Positions 16,559 to 24,289 of a DNA stretch of 25,980 nucleotides are shown piece by piece. The notes beneath the pieces are model-generated. The model did no database searches. It saw nothing but the letters and a program-made list of their open reading frames with translations, and was not told the origin of the DNA. The position numbers and the translations under genes are program-made. The DNA comes from a virus: positions 1 through 25,980 of IMG/VR virus record IMGVR_UViG_3300034523_000021; one strand, written 5' to 3'. How positions within the stretch are numbered: the stretch's first letter is position 1; every line of letters begins with the position of its first letter.

Positions 16559-18282
16559 TAAATGCCTACCATAATTGGATTTTCGTAGAAGCCACTCGTA
16601 TCAGGCTCGCCCGCATTGGCCAGCACCCGACCTATGGCCATGATCAGCGCGACGGCGCCGTCGATCTTGTTGTCATCGCCCTGCTTGATAGGGCGAACCA
16701 CGTCATCGTTGCCGGGTAGGTTCTTTCCAATCACGTTGCCGACACACCAGGTCATGATGGGGTTGCCGTCATGATGGAAACGGCCAGCTTCTATCGCGGC
16801 CTCCAGTTCTTTCATCGGATCCGACATGTTGGTGTAGTTTTGCGTGATGGTGACCGGATTGAAACCCTGATCATCAAGGTCATGACTCAGGCCTGTTGCA
16901 CCATGAGGATCAATTGGGCATTCGCGAACAGGGGCTTGGTGGTTCGCTTCCTTGGTGTCCTCGAGGATTTCGCGGTAGTCGACCTCGGCACCGTCGGTCA
17001 CATCCAGATGCTTGGAGTGAATCCAGGCCTGGAAGCGCTCAGCCATTCGCTTGTTATCGGTGTTGAAGGCGGTGTCGTAAGGAACCCAGAACTTCGGCGC
17101 AATGCTGTAGTAGTGGTTCTTCCCGTCAATAACGCGCCAGAACAGCCTGGCCCTTGAGTTCATGTCGAGCTTGCGCGCCAAGTCGAAACCGGCAATCCAC
17201 TCTTGCCCCTCGAACTGCTCCAGGGTCAGCGACGTGTCTTCACATGCCTTCCAGCTTTCCATGTTATAGAAGCCGGCCTTGGCGCTAACCCAAAGGTTGA
17301 GGTGCTTCGTTTTGAAGGTGTTCGCAAAGCGGGCCGAGCGAATGGCTCGGGCCTGCTGACTCTCCAGGTACTCCTGAAACACCGAGACGCCATGGTTCGG
17401 GTTGGCCTTGGCCAGCATTTTCGGATCGGTCCAGTCGTCGCCCTCATCGAGCGTCCAGATCCAACCGAACAACTCTTCGTCCGGCACCGTACCGGCCAGC
17501 ATCTCGACGACCTGGCGGCGTTTGTCGTAGCACGGGCCTTCAATGTCGGCGCCGGCGGTGGTGATGATGAACATCAGCGGCTGACGCCGCGCGCCCATAC
17601 CGGTGAGCATGGTGTCGTACTGGGCCGACGTTGGGTGCTCGTGGTATTCGTCGACGATGGCGCAGCTGGGTGACGCGCCGTCGCCGGGGTTGCCTATCAG
17701 GGGCTCGAAGCGGCTGAAATCGGACGGGATGTTCATGTTCGAGGCATTCACCTCGATGCCAGCGGCCTGAATAAGCATCGGTGACTTGCTGACCATGAGT
17801 TTCGCAGGCCGGAAAACTTCCCAGGCCTGTTTCTCCGTCGTTGCGCCGGCGTACACCTCTGCACCGAACTCGCCATCGGCGACGAACATGCTTATGCCCA
17901 CGCCACCGGCGACAACTGATTTGCCATTCTTCCTTGGCACCTCCCAGTAGCTTTCACGGAACCGGCGGTGCCCGCCCTTCTTCTTTATCCAGCCGAATGT
18001 CACGGCCAGGCCAAAAAGCTGCCAAGGCTCGAGCGTGATCAGCTGACGCTTGAATGCCCACTCACCCTTGGTGTGCGGGAGCAGTTGCATCAGCTTGAGC
18101 TTTTTTTCTGCCTTGGCCGGATCAAACTTGTAACGGAACCCGCGCTTGCGGCTGCCGGCCAGGTCGTCGAAGTGTCGCTGCACTGCCTGGTGGATATAAC
18201 GGCACGCCGGGACCTTACCGCGGAGCAATGACCGACCCCACGCCGTCGCCTTATCGACATTGGGGTGGGCAGATTTGGTCAT
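16558..18282 (-). CDS. Terminase large subunit (TerL)
   Basis: The 574-aa product is a DNA-packaging motor. The ATPase domain shows a Walker A-like VPRKNGKS (115-122) and Walker B CAIVDE (207-212) followed by HEHPTS. The C-terminal nuclease domain shows Asp367 in [13 protein letters not shown], a second acidic site in CPIDPHG and a final [12 protein letters not shown]. This is the Terminase_1/HK97 gp2 group, which together with a P27 small subunit and an HNH protein usually marks cos-type packaging. The ATG overlaps the TerS stop by one base. Confidence 0.95.
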
Positions 18283-18767
18283 CAGGTTCTCAGCAGGTTG
18301 GCAAATTCGTTGGTTTCTTTCTCCTTGTTGCCGCCGATCAGCCGTGTGCGGCTGGCCGGGTCCAAGCCCAGCATCGAACCGAACGTAACCATCTGGCGCA
18401 TCGTTTCATTGGCGGCGGTAAGTGCGGGGTTCTTCATCGGCCCGCCGGTGGCGCCGGTAACGACGATGCCATGCTGCTGGATCGATTCTTGGGCAAGCCG
18501 CCAGTTGTCGTAGGCGCTACAGAAGGCCTCGACGTTGTGCAGGTCCGTGATAGCCACCACGTTCTCGCGCAGCAGCTCGGGGACAATCATGTTCCACATA
18601 GTGGCGGCCCGCGGAGTGAACCATTCGGGCGGATCGATCTGGGTGATCTTGGAAAACTGCGGCTCAGCTTTGTTCAGCGCGCGCTTGCCAGGGTTTCCGG
18701 CGAGTGCTTTTTTGGCCGTTGGCTTGGGTTTGCGACCACGGCCGGCGACCGTGGCGGTGCCTCCCAT
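18282..18767 (-). CDS. Terminase small subunit, P27 family
   Basis: The 161-aa product has the P27-family layout: a basic Gly/Lys/Pro-rich N-terminus ([24 protein letters not shown]), [26 protein letters not shown], and a C-terminal part with [31 protein letters not shown]. It recognises the packaging site. AGGAG lies 6 nt before the ATG. It follows the HNH gene and the presumed cos region. Confidence 0.93.
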
Positions 18768-18927
18768 CGCGCAACTCCTGTATTTTTTAATTTCGCGGGT
18801 GTAAAAAAACGACTGAGGGCGCGGTCTAGAAGCGAAAAGGCCCAGACTTTTGACCCTCCCCCTCCTTTTCTGCGCGAATCATTCTCGTTTGACCTTTTTT
18901 CACTGTTTTTCGGCCATCTTTCTGTTT
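18768..18927. other. Candidate cos / packaging-site region between HNH and TerS
   Basis: This 160-bp non-coding gap holds a striking purine tract on the minus strand (GGAGGGGGAGGGTCAAAAG, 18865-18847). It also has T-runs on both sides and a GATTCGCGC-type stretch just upstream. In phages with adjacent HNH, P27 TerS and HK97 TerL the cos site lies beside these genes. I cannot locate cohesive ends by eye; the assignment is positional inference. Confidence 0.45.
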
Positions 18928-19302
18928 TCAGCGCCGGGAGTTGCCGAAACCACCATCCTCGGAGGCCGTCTTGCTGGAGTGGCATGGACCACAGAGGCTC
19001 TGCCAGTTGTCCCGATCCCAGAACAGGACCATATCGCCCTTGTGGGGGATGACGTGATCAACATCGGTAGCCGCAACCACCTTGCCTGCCTGCTCGCAAC
19101 GCCTGCACAGCGGATGCTTTGCCAGCCAGCCTGCCCTTGCCTGCTGCCACTTGTAGTTGTAGTGGCGCTTGGTGCTGCTCTCCCGAGGCTTGGCCCACGT
19201 CGAACTCTTGAGTAGGTGCGCATGTTCATCGCAGTACCGAGGGTTTCGGGTCAGCGTGTTGCAGCCCTGGGCATTGCATGGCTTCTGCGGCCTCAGCGGC
19301 AC
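18928..19302 (-). CDS. HNH endonuclease beside terminase
   Basis: The 124-aa product has a complete HNH motif: VDHVIPHKGD (His83), the central DRDNWQSL (Asn99) and CHSSKT (His108). Two CxxC pairs (Cys66/69 and Cys104/107) should bind structural zinc. An N-terminal Cys/His cluster (CNAQGCNTL...RYCDEHA) is also present. In HK97-type phages the HNH protein next to TerS works with TerL in cos cleavage. The start is a GTG with a weak ribosome binding site and overlaps the preceding small ORF by 10 nt, so coupling is likely. Confidence 0.92.
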   Translation of the reverse strand: MPLRPQKPCNAQGCNTLTRNPRYCDEHAHLLKSSTWAKPRESSTKRHYNYKWQQARAGWLAKHPLCRRCEQAGKVVAATDVDHVIPHKGDMVLFWDRDNWQSLCGPCHSSKTASEDGGFGNSRR

Positions 19303-19475
19303 GGTGTGCCATCCATGTACGTAAGTGGCGGCGCTTCAGGATCCTGATCTGCCTGATCCTCTGCCAGGGCCTGGATCAGCATGGACAGGTTCGTCTCCAT
19401 GCGCACCAAGAGTGAGGTTTGTTTCTTCATCTCGGCCAGCATCTCGGCCTGTAAGCAGTTCGCTTGCTCGCTCAT
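19293..19475 (-). CDS. Small helical protein of unknown function
   Basis: The 60-aa product MSEQANCLQAEMLAEMKKQTSLLVRMETNLSMLIQALAEDQ... is a single amphipathic helix followed by an acidic linker and the tail LTYMDGTPCR. AAGAGG lies 7 nt before the ATG. It overlaps the HNH start by 10 nt. I have no function for it; similar short Glu/Leu-rich ORFs with a C-terminal TYMDG-like tail occur next to HNH genes in Pseudomonas phages (recollection, not searched). Confidence 0.6.
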   Translation of the reverse strand: MSEQANCLQAEMLAEMKKQTSLLVRMETNLSMLIQALAEDQADQDPEAPPLTYMDGTPCR

Positions 19476-19536
19476 AGGCCAGCCTCTTCATATTATTCAG
19501 CCATTCGCGCCGGGCGGCGCATCCACTGCAGGCCAT
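19336..19536 (-). CDS. Small Cys-containing ORF overlapping its neighbour
   Basis: The 66-aa frame begins MACSGCAARREWLNNMKRLAYERA, a pattern I associate with tiny conserved proteins in Pseudomonas phage lysis/terminase regions. Its ATG overlaps the preceding stop by one base (TAATG), so translation could be coupled without a Shine-Dalgarno. After about residue 28 it overlaps the 60-aa ORF at 19475-19293 in another frame and becomes Gly/Asp/Arg-rich, like a shadow. Either both overlap genuinely or this gene is being extended beyond its former end. No function is known. Confidence 0.45.
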   Translation of the reverse strand: MACSGCAARREWLNNMKRLAYERASELLTGRDAGRDEETNLTLGAHGDEPVHADPGPGRGSGRSGS

Positions 19537-19874
19537 TACTGAGCCGCTCGACTAAGCGCTTCATCCGCCTTGTCAGCAGCCTTGGCCGCCGTGTCTGCCG
19601 CCTGGACCGCCGTGTTAGATGCCTCTTGCACCTTGACCGCCGCGTCCTGGGTCTTCTCGGCCAACGAGGTCAGCCGAAGGTCACGCTTGCCCAGGGCGGC
19701 GTCGTAAGCGGCGCGTACTTCGGCAAGCTGCTTGGTCTGCTCGCTGCTGGCTGACCATACACCGGCCTGGTATCCAAGGATGGATCCGCCGGCTACCAGC
19801 AACAGCGCGATTACCCAAACCTCAGCTCGCCTCCACCAGTGGCGGGCGATGAAGTTGATTGCGCATCTGTCCAT
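19536..19874 (-). CDS. Membrane-anchored coiled-coil protein, spanin/holin candidate
   Basis: The 112-aa product has one N-terminal membrane segment after a basic start (ARHWWRRAEVWVIALLLVAGGSILGYQAGVW, about residues 17-38). A long Ala/Glu/Lys/Gln helix follows to the end. That topology, an inner-membrane anchor with a periplasmic coiled coil, is the i-spanin (Rz) layout. No overlapping lipoprotein frame (Rz1) is visible in it. The ATG overlaps the preceding stop by one base (TGATG). The spanin role is inference; a structural or holin-like protein is also possible. Confidence 0.7.
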   Translation of the reverse strand: MDRCAINFIARHWWRRAEVWVIALLLVAGGSILGYQAGVWSASSEQTKQLAEVRAAYDAALGKRDLRLTSLAEKTQDAAVKVQEASNTAVQAADTAAKAADKADEALSRAAQ

Positions 19875-20245
19875 CAGTTGACGCCTCCCAGCTTGGTTCG
19901 CAGGCGGGCGATCTCATCGCTCTGCGAGGTGACCGTTGCAGTGAGTTGCGCGACCTGGCTGGTGAGCGCCTCAATCTTGCCCTCCATCCGTCCAACCGCC
20001 GCAGCGAGCTCGTTGCGCTCTTTGGCGAACTGGTCGGCGCGTGCCTCGGCGGCGTTCGCCCGTGCACGCTCAGTGTCCAGTAGTTCGTTCAGTCGCCTGA
20101 CGGTGCCGATGTCGGCGTTATCCATCGCCCGATCGGTGGCGTCCTTCGAGAGGAACTTGCGGAGCCAGAGTAGGCCGCCAAGCGCGACGGTGGCACTACC
20201 GCCAAGCCAGGTAGCCGTGCCTGGGCCGAGGTCAGTAGGATCCAT
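19874..20245 (-). CDS. First late gene: membrane/coiled-coil protein, holin-like candidate
   Basis: The 123-aa product has one short hydrophobic stretch near the N-terminus (ATWLGGSATVALGGLLWLRKFL, residues 11-32). From residue 50 to the end it is a long heptad-rich helix (RLNELLDTERARANAAEARADQFAKERNELAAAVGRME...). It is the first gene after the presumed late promoter and terminator, where lysis genes usually sit. The ribosome binding site is TGGAG, 7 nt upstream. A holin, antiholin or spanin-like role is inference from topology and place. Confidence 0.7.
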   Translation of the reverse strand: MDPTDLGPGTATWLGGSATVALGGLLWLRKFLSKDATDRAMDNADIGTVRRLNELLDTERARANAAEARADQFAKERNELAAAVGRMEGKIEALTSQVAQLTATVTSQSDEIARLRTKLGGVN

Positions 20246-20262
20246 CCGGTACTCCAGAAACG

Positions 20263-20288
20263 AAAAAGCCCCGCACAGTGGCGGGGCT
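20263..20288 (-). terminator. Strong terminator after the late promoter (tR'-like)
   Basis: On the minus strand AGCCCCGC and GCGGGGCT form a perfect 8-bp stem with a 6-nt loop (CACTGT), followed directly by TTTTT. It lies between the putative late promoter and the first late gene. This is where lambda tR' blocks late transcription until Q acts. Confidence 0.85.
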
Positions 20289-20338
20289 CAGAATTTTGGG
20301 TCGTCTCTCATAACGCGCAAGATCGACATGATGGGGTT

Positions 20339-20367
20339 AATTTACGGCCAGTCGGCCAATGGGTCAA
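20339..20367 (-). promoter_or_regulatory. Putative late promoter (pR'-like)
   Basis: On the minus strand a -35 box TTGACC (20367-20362) and a -10 box TAAATT (20344-20339) are separated by exactly 17 bp. The stop codon of the 187-aa gene lies within the -35 box. Transcription should start near 20332 and meet the terminator stem about 45 nt later. No other gene lies in this 118-bp gap. Confidence 0.7.
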
Positions 20368-20927
20368 GCGGCATCTACAAAGATTTGCTCACTGTCGAAT
20401 ATCTCGGTCGCGTGGATGACAGCCTGCTCTTCGAGCTTCTCCAAACGCTTGTGGATTCCGCCGCGCCAGTTGCGGCGCGTCCGCTCCGGGGAGCCAGCCA
20501 GATCCCAGGTGTTCATGTCGTAAAACTCGGCGGGCAGCACGATCATATCTGTGGAGCGTTTCCCTATCTGCACGCCTTTCAGCTTCGGTATGGCCCACGC
20601 TGTCAGCGCCTTATAGACGAACAGCTGTGGCGCCGGGGAAACCATGCGGGCCACCAGCCTGCCGATGGCGCCGACCTTGTTGGCCTTGTGCGTTGAGTAC
20701 TTGGCCACCAACACATCCCATTGCGCTGGATCGAGTTGACGATGAAGCAGCGCATACAGGCAGCAGTCGTAGTCGAATTTGTCACGCACGGACAACGTGC
20801 TGCCGGTACCGCCCTGGCGAAGGTCGGCGTCGATCAACTTTTGCCATGACTGTTTGGTGCTGTTGTCTATGTTGTCTGCTGCCAGCACCCGCACCAGGGT
20901 ACCCATCACGTCCTTATACATAGCCAT
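20364..20927 (-). CDS. Candidate late antiterminator (Q analogue)
   Basis: The 187-aa product does not match lambda Q that I can see, but it occupies the Q position: last gene of the early/nin operon, immediately before a promoter and a strong terminator. It is mostly helical. The segment LDPAQWDVLVAKYSTHKANKVGAIGRLVARM (about residues 65-95) looks like an HTH/sigma region 4-like unit as found in several antiterminator and late activator families. A basic region (SPERTRRNWRGGIHKRLEK) lies near 143-161. GGGGA precedes the ATG at 20927, with a second possible ATG two codons later. The function is inferred from context. Confidence 0.6.
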   Translation of the reverse strand: MAMYKDVMGTLVRVLAADNIDNSTKQSWQKLIDADLRQGGTGSTLSVRDKFDYDCCLYALLHRQLDPAQWDVLVAKYSTHKANKVGAIGRLVARMVSPAPQLFVYKALTAWAIPKLKGVQIGKRSTDMIVLPAEFYDMNTWDLAGSPERTRRNWRGGIHKRLEKLEEQAVIHATEIFDSEQIFVDAA

Positions 20928-20930
20928 GGC

Positions 20931-21245
20931 TCAATCCCCTGTGTAGTTGGTGCCGCCGGCGCCGCGGCGGTTGTTCTGTTCGTATTGCTCGTGGGCACCG
21001 CCGATAACATGGCGAGCCCTGGCGATCTCGGTGAGCGAGTCTTTCAACCGCACATTCAGCACCGGCACTACATCGCTCAACGGAAGAGTCTGGAGCGTGT
21101 GGCCGCAGACCCAACCCGAGCCCAGGCAGTGATCGCACTCGAGGTAGTGGAACAGCCCGAGCCGTTCGCCCTTCCCGAGACAGATGTTGCACTCGACGAT
21201 GAACTTCAGCTCGCGCTGCTGGAGTGAACCGCGGGACTTATTCAT
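20931..21245 (-). CDS. DnaJ-like zinc-finger protein of the nin region
   Basis: The 104-aa product has two CxxCxGxG-type units, CNICLGKGE (Cys19/Cys22) and CDHCLGSGW (Cys37/Cys40), spaced as one DnaJ-type zinc-binding module, with a further Cys47. The C-terminal half is helical and charged. GGAGG lies 5 nt before the ATG and the gene overlaps its upstream neighbour by 4 nt (ATGA). Similar zinc-finger proteins are common next to late regulators of lambdoid phages and may bind nucleic acid or protein; the precise role is unknown. Confidence 0.75.
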   Translation of the reverse strand: MNKSRGSLQQRELKFIVECNICLGKGERLGLFHYLECDHCLGSGWVCGHTLQTLPLSDVVPVLNVRLKDSLTEIARARHVIGGAHEQYEQNNRRGAGGTNYTGD

Positions 21246-21445
21246 TTGGCCTCCAGCAGTCGCTTATGGGTTTCGTAAACATCGTCACCGTTCGGCAAAT
21301 GAGGTTCGTGATGAACGCGGTACTTGTCTCCACCCCGCATGCGCACCTCAAGGACCGGAGCATGATTCACGGTGTAGATGAAGATGGCGCTGATATCGGC
21401 CGGGTTCACGGCGAGTCGGGTGCGCTTTAGGATCTGAATCAGCAT
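21242..21445 (-). CDS. Small hypothetical protein
   Basis: The 67-aa product (MLIQILKRTRLAVNPADISAIFIYTVNHAPVLEVRMRGGDKYRV...) looks like a compact alpha/beta domain with strands around 18-45 and a helix at the end. GAGGT lies 7 nt before the ATG, it begins 2 nt after the recombinase stop, and it overlaps the zinc-finger gene by 4 nt. No family recognised. Confidence 0.7.
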   Translation of the reverse strand: MLIQILKRTRLAVNPADISAIFIYTVNHAPVLEVRMRGGDKYRVHHEPHLPNGDDVYETHKRLLEAK

Positions 21446-21447
21446 TT

Positions 21448-22728
21448 TTAAACCTCGCCTATGGTTGAATATTGATTGGCCTCGCAGCCCTTATGCTCCG
21501 TGGCTTTCAGCGAATTACCGGAATCTTCAAATCTAAAGCCGGTCAATCCGTGAATCGCTGCAAAGCCTTTCTGATCTAGATGCGCGTGCCACTGGTCCAG
21601 GGCATCACGCTTGCGACTCATCACGTCCGACTGGATGTACACCTTCACGTTGTGGCCCATGGCGTGGTTGATCAGCAGCTCGCCAATCAGGTGGTCGATG
21701 CCGAGATCTGCCCAGCCAGTACGGGCCACCTTGCGCAGGTCGTGACTGGTCCACTCGCCCTGCCCCAATCGACGGAACACGGCGCAGCCCTGAGCCTCGC
21801 CCAGCGCCTTGCCGTTGCGCGCCGGGAACAGGCATTGGCCCTCATAGCCTCGGGCGTACTGACCTTCGCGGTACTGAGTCAGCAGCGCGCACACCTGCTC
21901 GGTCAGGGGCAAGTGATGCTCGACACCGGTCTTTGTGTTCTCGGCCGGGATGAACCACTCGCGCTCGGCAAGGCTGATGTGCGACCAGCGGGCCATCCGG
22001 GTTTCGCCGATCCTCGTCCCGTGACAGAGCATCATCAGCGCGAGCATCGAATCCAGAGGTGCAGTGGTCATCACGTAGGCCAGCTGCGCGATCAGGCCTT
22101 CCAACTGGACACCGCGAAGACGGGATGGCTTGATGCCGACCTTCGCCTTTGAGAAGTCATTGAACCGGATCGCCGCCATCGGGTTGAACGTGATCATCCC
22201 CAGCTTGGTCGCCTGACGGAACGCCAGGGCCAGCAGCTGGAATGCCGAACGCACGTAGTCGATGGAAACCGTCTCTTGAAGCGGCCACATCAGCAGTGTG
22301 TCGAGCGCAGCCTTGTCGATGGCGATCAGCGGCATGTCGCCCAGGCGCGGTTTCAAGTGGCACTTGATCAGCGATGCACCTGTGTTCTTGCGCTTGGCGG
22401 ACAGGTTGCGATCGCGCGACATGCGATCGGCGAACCAATCCAGCAACTCACCCACGGTGCCCCACTTGGAAAGGCTCGTACCTTCGCCAGCAGCCAGGCG
22501 CAGGCGAAGTGATGGCAACGCGGCGGCGACCTGTTTGTGGGTCAGTTCTGGAAAGGTGCCGATCGGGTTCCACTTGCCCTTCAGCACCAGGTACCACGAT
22601 CCGCCAGTACGGGCTTTGTTGAAGCGCAGGTATAGACCCTTGTTTTCGAGGTCGCGGACGTCCTGCACCGTGCCGGCCGCCTGGCGCTTGATCTCTGCCT
22701 CGGTGATCTTGACCGCGGCGGTAGTCAT
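21448..22728 (-). CDS. Tyrosine recombinase/integrase, P4-type, inside the nin operon
   Basis: The 426-aa product has a SAM-like core-binding domain (~90-190) and a catalytic domain. It shows Arg239 in CHGTRIGETRMARW, Lys266 in ENTKTGVEHHLPL, His329-x-x-Arg332 (SHDLRK), His355 (LLINHAMG) and the probable nucleophile Tyr364 in YIQSDVMSRKRDALDQW. The last segment follows the P4/DUF4102-type integrase pattern. All catalytic residues are present. It is translationally linked to RusA (4-nt overlap) on one side and a small gene 2 nt away on the other, far from any visible attachment site. It may be a lysogeny integrase expressed early, or a recombinase with a replication or resolution role. Confidence 0.9.
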   Translation of the reverse strand: MTTAAVKITEAEIKRQAAGTVQDVRDLENKGLYLRFNKARTGGSWYLVLKGKWNPIGTFPELTHKQVAAALPSLRLRLAAGEGTSLSKWGTVGELLDWFADRMSRDRNLSAKRKNTGASLIKCHLKPRLGDMPLIAIDKAALDTLLMWPLQETVSIDYVRSAFQLLALAFRQATKLGMITFNPMAAIRFNDFSKAKVGIKPSRLRGVQLEGLIAQLAYVMTTAPLDSMLALMMLCHGTRIGETRMARWSHISLAEREWFIPAENTKTGVEHHLPLTEQVCALLTQYREGQYARGYEGQCLFPARNGKALGEAQGCAVFRRLGQGEWTSHDLRKVARTGWADLGIDHLIGELLINHAMGHNVKVYIQSDVMSRKRDALDQWHAHLDQKGFAAIHGLTGFRFEDSGNSLKATEHKGCEANQYSTIGEV

Positions 22729-23102
22729 TTGCCCACCGCTGCCGGTGCGGCGTCGATGGGATAATCTCGGATGTGCACGCGAACAGAGCCGCCCGCCACC
22801 GGCTCGCCGACGTTGATGGTGGTGACGAAGTTCTTGTCGTCGATGCCCAGGCCATCAGCGATGCCATCGCGACCAGCCTTGAAGCGCGCCAGCAGGTTGT
22901 CGTCATCGTAGGAGCGGCGATTCGGCGGGCAGAACGTGACCCAGAAATACTTTTTGCCACTGAGGCGCGGCGCACCGAGCGCCAACGCGATCAGTCCACA
23001 GGCGTGGCGGTACGCCTTCGCGTGTTTGTGTTTTTGCCGCCAGTGCACGCGCGCGTTTGGACTCAACTCCTTCGGCGGCCACGGCAGCGTCATGTCGATC
23101 AT
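22725..23102 (-). CDS. rusA: RusA-family Holliday junction endonuclease
   Basis: The 125-aa product has the RusA signature: N-terminal LPWPPKELSPNARVHW, then the catalytic acidic cluster YDDDNLLARFKAGRDGIADGLGIDD with Asp66-68, Lys75 and Asp88/89. It resolves four-way DNA junctions made during phage replication and recombination before packaging. Start may be the ATG at 23102 (overlapping the preceding stop as ATGA) or three codons later. It overlaps the recombinase gene by 4 nt. Confidence 0.94.
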   Translation of the reverse strand: MIDMTLPWPPKELSPNARVHWRQKHKHAKAYRHACGLIALALGAPRLSGKKYFWVTFCPPNRRSYDDDNLLARFKAGRDGIADGLGIDDKNFVTTINVGEPVAGGSVRVHIRDYPIDAAPAAVGK

Positions 23103-23401
23103 GCAGCCCCCTTAACGGTGAGAATTCCGGCCCGGATCAGGCCTTGGTGGGTTTCCGCAATGGCGCGCGGCATGTCCCGCCAGTCGATGTCGCCGGCGGC
23201 GCGTCCGTCGATCACGTCATGGCAAGCGCTGCAGGCGTACACAGCGACGGTGTCTAAGCCCTTCATGCCCATACCCTTTTGCCCGCAAGGCAGATGAGCG
23301 AGAACTGTGGTTTCTGGATTGTGGTTGCAGACGCCTGGCATCCGGACGGTGCACTCTTGGCCATTGGCCGAGGCGCGGAGCTTCTTCGAACTTACTCGCA
23401 T
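23099..23401 (-). CDS. DUF1364/YbcO-like nuclease
   Basis: The 100-aa product (MRVSSKKLRASANGQECTVRMPGVCNHNPETTVLAHLPCGQKGMGMKG...ACSACHDVIDGR) matches DUF1364, related to E. coli YbcO. Probable zinc ligands are Cys17, Cys25, Cys57 and Cys60, with His36 and His61 near the active site. It is likely a structure-specific nuclease, as in many lambdoid nin regions. I chose the ATG at 23401; the longer frame upstream runs through the preceding gene. It overlaps RusA by 4 nt. Confidence 0.88.
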   Translation of the reverse strand: MRVSSKKLRASANGQECTVRMPGVCNHNPETTVLAHLPCGQKGMGMKGLDTVAVYACSACHDVIDGRAAGDIDWRDMPRAIAETHQGLIRAGILTVKGAA

Positions 23402-23601
23402 GGCGGGTTCCCCGTGACGACATCGACGACTTCGTAAGTGCCCGGCCACATCCAGGCGCCGTATCGCCGGGCCATAGCCGGATCGGCAAAAAGGGCAAGT
23501 GCATGATCAGGTGGCGAGCTCAAGTCGACCTTGAACGAGCAGCAGAACACCGCCCAGCGGTAGGTCTCGATCTCAGGAATAGCAAGGCGGCGATCAGCCA
23601 T
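23392..23601 (-). CDS. Small hypothetical nin-region protein
   Basis: The 69-aa product starts MADRRLAIPEIETYRWAVFCCSFKVDLSSPPDHALALFADPAMARRYG. It is a compact domain with two central Cys and several Trp/Tyr, without a recognised family. I use the ATG at 23601, which overlaps the P stop by 8 nt and has a GGGGG tract upstream; a longer frame overlaps P. It overlaps the next gene by 10 nt. Confidence 0.65.
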   Translation of the reverse strand: MADRRLAIPEIETYRWAVFCCSFKVDLSSPPDHALALFADPAMARRYGAWMWPGTYEVVDVVTGNPPCE

Positions 23602-24289
23602 GACGGGCAGCCCCCGATCGCATAGCGCGCAGCTCGGCGAGCGCTCTGTTTCCGATCTCAGGTGTGCGGCGTCCTTCAACTCGCTCAGGCAGTGCCAAAG
23701 GCATTTTCTGCAATGGCAGCCCCTCAATCAGGCGCCTAACTGTGATGGTGTAATTGCGCTCGAACAGCTTGAGGCTGAGCGATTCCTCCAGCTTGTTCAG
23801 ACTTTCAAAGCCACACTCTTTCGCTGTATGCCAAACCGCGTCGTTGCTCCACCGCGCACGCCCGGCCATGCAGGGATGCGCATTGCGGCATGCTTCACGA
23901 TGAGCGGCCGAAAGCGTTGGCAGGCCAAGCATTTCAGCAGTTGGCGTGCACCAGCCGATGAACACCCCGGGGGCTGGGATAAAATCCCTTCCTGACTGAC
24001 GAGCCCCCATTAGACCGAACTGCAGCTGATCAAGACTGCGCAGGCCTGCCTCTAGGAACGCCTGCAGCCACTCTTTTTTTGCCGCCTTGTAGGAAGCCAT
24101 GTCCGGCCACGCCTGCTTCCAAGCGGGGAAGATCGCGCGCAGCTGGCGAAACAAGCCGTTGATCACGATGGCAGTTTCACGGTTGAGCTCTGCTTGAATT
24201 TCTTGAGGTAGTTGCTGTTCCTTCGCGATGTACTGCCCCGACTGAACCTTCGCCCACAGCCCCGTGGTTACGACTGCAACGCTTTTCAT
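23594..24289 (-). CDS. P: Replication protein P (helicase loader)
   Basis: The 231-aa product matches the lambda P family: VINGLFRQLRAIFPAWKQAWPD (about 42-63), KKEWLQAFLEAG and ARQSGRDFIPAPGVFIGWC. It recruits the host DnaB helicase to the initiator-bound origin. Its ATG overlaps the O-like stop codon by 4 nt (ATGA), the usual O-P pairing. Confidence 0.9.
   Translation of the reverse strand: MKSVAVVTTGLWAKVQSGQYIAKEQQLPQEIQAELNRETAIVINGLFRQLRAIFPAWKQAWPDMASYKAAKKEWLQAFLEAGLRSLDQLQFGLMGARQSGRDFIPAPGVFIGWCTPTAEMLGLPTLSAAHREACRNAHPCMAGRARWSNDAVWHTAKECGFESLNKLEESLSLKLFERNYTITVRRLIEGLPLQKMPLALPERVEGRRTPEIGNRALAELRAMRSGAARHG

Follow-up and report, generated by a model that had tools for sequence, protein, structure and literature searches.

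The PHROG 3412 family of temperate Pseudomonas phages: probable Q-type late antiterminators with an AlpA-like predicted fold

Known Q-type antiterminators

The antiterminators 21Q, lambda Q, 82Q, and AlpA have been described as unrelated in sequence but similar in fold or mechanism, and the AlpA study predicted that further members would emerge through structure (PMC9371919). The promoter controlled by AlpA contains one binding element, GGGACG, at -25 to -20, through which the protein loads as one copy, and a required pause element, CACGAT, at -1 to +5 (PMC9371919, PMC7969949). The 21Q site contains TGAGCA twice, with key C:G pairs at -21 and -13 (PMC6606751). A full-length structure of 82Q was not available according to the AlpA paper (PMC9371919). 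GafZ, which acts in the Caulobacter gene transfer agent with its partner GafY, shows no structural similarity to AlpA or Q proteins, as reported by its authors (PMC11150451).

The DNA analyzed here, a virus record of 25,980 bases, comes from a temperate Pseudomonas siphophage, and the whole stretch is referred to as the window. A sequence-only reading of this stretch had proposed a late switch of the Q, pR', tR' type, served by an unrecognised antiterminator of 187 aa. The computed gene order, a conserved promoter-terminator cassette, a predicted fold matching that of AlpA, covariation between the DNA site and the recognition helix, and a 21Q-type Q gene in the same slot of a related phage all support this proposal. 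Based on sequence comparison and structural modeling, the 187-aa protein is very probably a Q-type late-gene antiterminator acting through the adjoining cassette. The family would represent the case anticipated by the AlpA authors, being a fifth family by sequence, AlpA-like by fold, and 21Q-like by site.

Genomic context and distribution of the family

On the minus strand of the window, the early genes encode, in order, a CII-like regulator, O-like and P-like replication proteins, a YbcO-type nuclease, and a RusA-like resolvase. These are followed by an integrase-like gene, two small genes, the 187-aa gene (20364..20927, minus strand), and then lysis, terminase, portal, and head genes. Judging from gene order and a PHROG match, the late region starts at the first gene past the terminator, annotated as 'hol-like chemotaxis' (phrog_2658; 19874..20245, minus strand). 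The integrase-like gene (21448-22728, minus strand) encodes a tyrosine recombinase and lies within the early operon, after the RusA-like gene and before the putative Q gene; integrase-like genes are found at a like place in Solano, Hali, and PseuP_224.

The 187-aa protein belongs to PHROG 3412 (phrog_3412, E 3e-77), a family of unknown function in the database that also contains orf84 of phage D3. All 57 aligned family members match PHROG 3412 and no other family. Members occur in 62 phage records, all but one of them named as Pseudomonas phages (carriers include D3, F10, MD8, JBD44, PS-1, and MPK9), and in hundreds of IMG/VR contigs. The family was present in 42 of 149 sampled Pseudomonas genomes (28%) and in only 1 of 274 genomes sampled from the class; the single case was the Pseudomonas genome on which that sample was centred. 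Two alignments (A2 and A3) were too diverse to use in collection scans. Searches of Pfam, NCBIfam, and PDB sequences with the 187-aa protein retrieved no relative, the protein fits no recognised Q family, and a Pfam search with 21 family members gave no match. Rfam and tRNA scans of the window were likewise without a match. In the literature searchable without a subscription, no earlier report describes D3 orf84 or PHROG 3412 as a Q protein; the only hint of prior naming is the GenBank product 'transcription regulator, anti-termination' of a member in PseuP_222.

In annotated phage records, the family member closes the early region: NinB, NinG, or RusA-type genes precede it, and the next genes encode holin, lysin, or terminase. 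This position, immediately before the late promoter and the late genes, was found in phages including D3, F10, MD8, JBD44, and phiAH14a. An apparent natural replacement is seen in PseuP_224, which matches the window in its structural genes and upstream flank. There, the slot is filled by a 127-aa protein that matches the 21Q family, PF06530, at E 7e-9, and a similar cassette follows the gene, consisting of a promoter-like stretch, then a hairpin and a terminator. The occurrence of a recognised Q in the exact place of the 187-aa gene is strong circumstantial evidence of equal function.

Directly upstream of the putative Q gene, the window encodes a protein of about 104 aa (20931-21245, minus strand; phrog_5085) that weakly matches DnaJ-like or Lar-like zinc fingers. 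This neighbor gives rise to an alternative explanation, in which the 187-aa protein regulates the late promoter, as an autorepressor or otherwise by binding DNA, while antitermination falls to a different factor, such as the zinc-finger-like protein. The 104-aa gene is indeed a frequent upstream neighbor (also at L084 3113-3430, L088 3164-3460, and L001 14682-14999), and the MD8 record names it 'antitermination protein Q'. However, it is present whichever Q type follows and also precedes the true 21Q-type Q in PseuP_224, so that it does not replace Q, and as a candidate for the Q itself it was rejected. Furthermore, the 104-aa protein has no Q-family match, and the AlpA fold described below belongs to the 187-aa protein. 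The MD8 label is probably wrong, and the explanation by another factor appears very improbable.

Promoter, tandem repeat, and pause element

The 187-aa gene ends within the promoter that follows it. The -35 box TTGACC (20362..20367, minus strand), which is largely conserved in the family, overlaps the TGA stop codon (20366-20364), and a 17-bp spacer separates it from the -10 box TAAATT (20339..20344, minus strand). This sigma70-like arrangement agrees with the sequence-only reading, whose coordinates for the gene, the promoter, and the terminator were all correct. The predicted start is A20332, 7 nt past the -10 box. Three further elements had been missed in that reading: a TGGCCG repeat, a CATCAT pause element, and a small RNA hairpin. 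The repeat forms the proposed binding element TGGCCG-AC-TGGCCG (20358-20345), unique in the window, with an upstream half-site at 20353..20358 and a downstream one at 20345..20350, both on the minus strand. Both halves are indicated by the period-8 repeat statistics, and the downstream half-site additionally covaries with the predicted recognition helix. The -10-like CATCAT (20328..20333, minus strand) lies at -1 to +5 and is a candidate sigma-dependent pause element, as suggested by family conservation and its likeness to the AlpA element.

The cassette layout is common to members down to about 35% identity, though the bases differ. In most members, the order is -35 box, two 6-bp direct repeats with a period of 8, -10 box, pause element, probable hairpin, and terminator. 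Most of the family keeps the motif gcTTGAC. In most members, the -35 box deviates little from consensus, and it usually takes in the stop codon. Many members have a weak -10 box. Spacers measure 17-18 bp and hold the tandem repeat. A period-8 repeat between the promoter boxes was detected in 41 of 54 representatives (exact in 31), compared with a mean of 5.8 and a maximum of 12 in shuffles; other lags give 3-16 among the same 54, and control regions at period 8 give 4-9. The half-sites vary from phage to phage (TGGCCG, TGAGCG, TGCAAC, TGGCAG, GCGAAC, CCATCA, and others), and the two copies within one cassette vary together. In 55 of 58 diverse cassettes, the -10-like element at about -1 to +5 carries A and T at both of its key positions, and at least 4 of 6 matches to TATAAT were counted in 23 of the 58, against 4.9 in shuffles. 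A minority of members (L089, L097, L137, L153, L164, L189, L298, L422, L424, L425, and L437) have no recognisable promoter and repeat directly past the stop codon; these members may rely on a more distant promoter or may themselves be decayed.

Terminator and nascent-RNA hairpin

An intrinsic, tR'-like terminator (20266..20289, minus strand) follows the promoter as a stem and a T run, at a position conserved in the family. Its stem (20289-20266) begins about 44 nt downstream of the predicted start, close to the distance of about 45 nt given in the sequence-only reading. Among family representatives, 32 of 54 have a terminator at most 190 nt past the gene, compared with 19 of 1080 control windows (1.8%), and the median distance is 38 nt past the predicted start.

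Within positions 17000-24000 of the window, there are 6 terminator-like sites (6.6 expected by chance) and 1 promoter-like site (1.3 expected). Since these matches are at chance level, the window alone is insufficient for the claim, which is carried by related sequences. Taken by themselves, such figures would suit an ordinary gene that happens to be followed by an unrelated promoter and terminator. This explanation is contradicted by the comparative data, namely the conservation down to about 35% identity together with covariation, and its probability is negligible.

Between the pause element and the terminator, folding z-scores point to a nascent-RNA hairpin, GTCGATCTTGCGCGTTATGAGAGACGAC (20300..20327, minus strand). 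The mean z-score over 46 diverse cassettes is -1.42, compared with 0.00 +/- 0.15 in controls. Counted covariation is weak to modest, and RNAalifold on 32 hairpins gave no consensus structure; for these two reasons, the hairpin is graded as only probably real, with the folding z-scores as the better evidence. Related features occur in phages with 21Q-type genes (L312-L342 and L388). Their promoters contain a palindrome-like TTGTCCATATGGAA in place of the tandem repeat, and a strong RNA hairpin of the GGTGTTCAGCTGTTTCAGCGCGACACC type precedes the terminator downstream of the 21Q-type gene.

Predicted fold

An AlphaFold2 model of the 187-aa protein, built with 57 sequences, reached a mean pLDDT of 80 and a pTM of 0.75. 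Its least certain parts are loops around residues 25-37, the expected counterpart of the ring-forming segment in AlpA and 21Q. When the model was compared with 350,542 PDB chains by Foldseek, AlpA chains ranked first and second with a probability of 1.00, and all others stayed at or below 0.10. A second model, from the MPK9-like clade, gave the same AlpA result; the two modeled clades are about 35% identical, and their alignments overlap by sharing rows. The E-values for AlpA (0.012-0.04) lie above 0.001, with TM values of 0.47-0.64. The model contains both parts of the AlpA fold, an N-terminal ring segment and a C-terminal helix-turn-helix, although the E-values are modest. AlpA, itself a Q-like antiterminator, is thus the sole confident PDB match, and 21Q was not retrieved.

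At the sequence level, a family-profile hmmsearch against PDB sequences found no AlpA chain at E-values up to 10, and hhalign against Pseudomonas 21Q-type proteins (PF06530) showed no link (probability 0.1). The suggestion in the sequence-only reading that the protein forms a separate antiterminator class therefore holds by sequence, but not as a wholly new type of protein, because the predicted fold is that of AlpA.

A gene located beside its own target would also fit a plain activator or repressor. For instance, the 187-aa protein might be a classical activator that recruits polymerase at the repeat, with the terminator merely insulating the early from the late operon. A helix-turn-helix protein with a repeat in or beside the promoter boxes is compatible with such a role, as are the weak -10 boxes of many members. 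Nevertheless, the -35 box is near consensus in most members, the repeat sits in the 17-18 bp spacer, where few activators bind, and conservation extends to a pause element and to a terminator set at a constant distance beyond the start. Moreover, the sole fold relative, AlpA, is an antiterminator. The pause element and the terminator favor antitermination without proving it, and the activator explanation is considered improbable.

Matching of half-site and recognition helix

Each column of the alignment was scored for the information that it shares with the half-site class. The four most informative of the 187 columns (149, 146, 152, and 151) all fall at the predicted recognition helix, which reads PERTRRNW in the window protein. 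Across 73 rows, Arg149 accompanies TG[G/T]C half-sites in 40 of 40 cases, and another residue accompanies other half-sites in 33 of 33. This two-class grouping was chosen after viewing the data, and a fresh prophage set was therefore tested, in which all 39 distinct loci with a readable site fit the Arg149 rule, many of them closely related to each other. When the helix columns were excluded from the tree, six changes were counted for each trait, and joint change was found in 6 of 6 independent pairs (p 0.031). In the MPK9-like clade, one member (L246) has acquired Arg149, and its site has changed to TGGCCG. Further pairings appear more than once, in distinct parts of the tree, such as Glu153 with CCATCA (L088 and L167) and Tyr152 with TGAGA (L091 and L228).

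A clade near the window protein (L080, L402, L403, L407, L409, and L414-L417) has Ser149 instead of Arg149, and eight of its loci were left unparsed. Where inspected (L080 and L415-L417), the sites are asymmetric, with TGGCGN upstream and TGATC rather than TGGCC downstream; they are possibly intermediates in a change of specificity, as read from the sequences. In MR13 and Aurca01 (L092 and L093), the N-terminal part is near-identical and the stretch from leader to terminator is identical, whereas the C-terminal part and the half-sites differ. This pattern suggests that recognition modules have been swapped by recombination.

Proposed mechanism and relation to known systems

The start site is a prediction, and the pause, binding, the two protomers, the nozzle, and read-through are modeled here by analogy with AlpA and 21Q. 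Early transcription would produce the 187-aa protein. Polymerase leaving the promoter just past the gene would pause at about +16 owing to sigma re-binding to the -10-like element (-1 to +5). The protein, which probably acts as two copies, would use its C-terminal helix-turn-helix to bind the pair of 6-bp half-sites that lies between -35 and -10. It would then load onto the paused polymerase, and its N-terminal loop-helix-loop would enter the RNA exit channel. Hairpins would be barred from this channel, so that polymerase could read on past the terminator and transcribe the lysis, packaging, and head genes.

AlpA (PDB 7XYA, 7XYB; Pseudomonas aeruginosa) is the closest system by predicted fold, which combines a helical N-terminal part with flexible loops and a C-terminal helix-turn-helix. 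It also shares the -10-like element at -1 to +5, an element between -35 and -10, a terminator shortly downstream, and a Pseudomonas host. In contrast, there is no HMM-level sequence similarity, most members carry two half-sites 8 bp apart where AlpA has a single element, and the proposed role is that of a phage late regulator rather than of a chromosomal one. By proposed role, gene position, and site, the family resembles 21Q of phage 21 (PF06530). The 6-bp direct repeats with a period of 8 lie in a near-identical register, with key C:G pairs likewise 8 bp apart, one family member carries TGAGCA-AA-TGAGCA, the half-site of 21Q itself, and 21Q-type genes fill the same slot in related Pseudomonas phages. 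Unlike 21Q, the 187-aa protein has no PF06530 match, is longer, and has added helices as in AlpA.

The resemblance to the lambda late switch that the sequence-only reading had drawn stands for the order Q, pR', tR', but the site, with half-sites 8 bp apart, resembles that of 21Q and not that of lambda. As in lambda Q and 82Q, the proposed element lies inside the promoter, and a candidate pause lies in the first transcribed bases. Differences lie in the absence of a Pfam or NCBIfam match, the absence of a zinc finger (only two cysteines, adjacent to each other), and the tandem repeat site. GafZ is comparable in being an antiterminator whose proposed site lies between -35 and -10, and differs in acting with GafY.

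A broader proposal can be put forward only tentatively, as somewhat less likely than not. The family would constitute a fifth Q-type sequence family that combines the AlpA fold with a 21Q-like two-protomer site. A simple helix code would have been re-wired often, each Q would serve mainly its own promoter, and the hairpin would be an added cis-element shared with 21Q-type cassettes.

Late-gene control in many temperate Pseudomonas phages, including the classic D3, appears to rest on the PHROG 3412 family. If this is true, AlpA, a host cell-death regulator thought to be prophage-derived, gains a family of phage counterparts, and its fold becomes linked to the tandem-site mode of 21Q. The DNA target appears partly readable from the protein's own sequence. 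Natural matched pairs of protein and DNA site make Q specificity testable, both by residue against half-site and by cross-activation of the late genes of related prophages. Beyond PHROG 3412, the predicted folds of two uncharacterised phage proteins in BFVD (A0A8S5QVS0 and A0A6J7WUV8) match the model with a probability of 1.00, and these proteins are possible further Q-like families.
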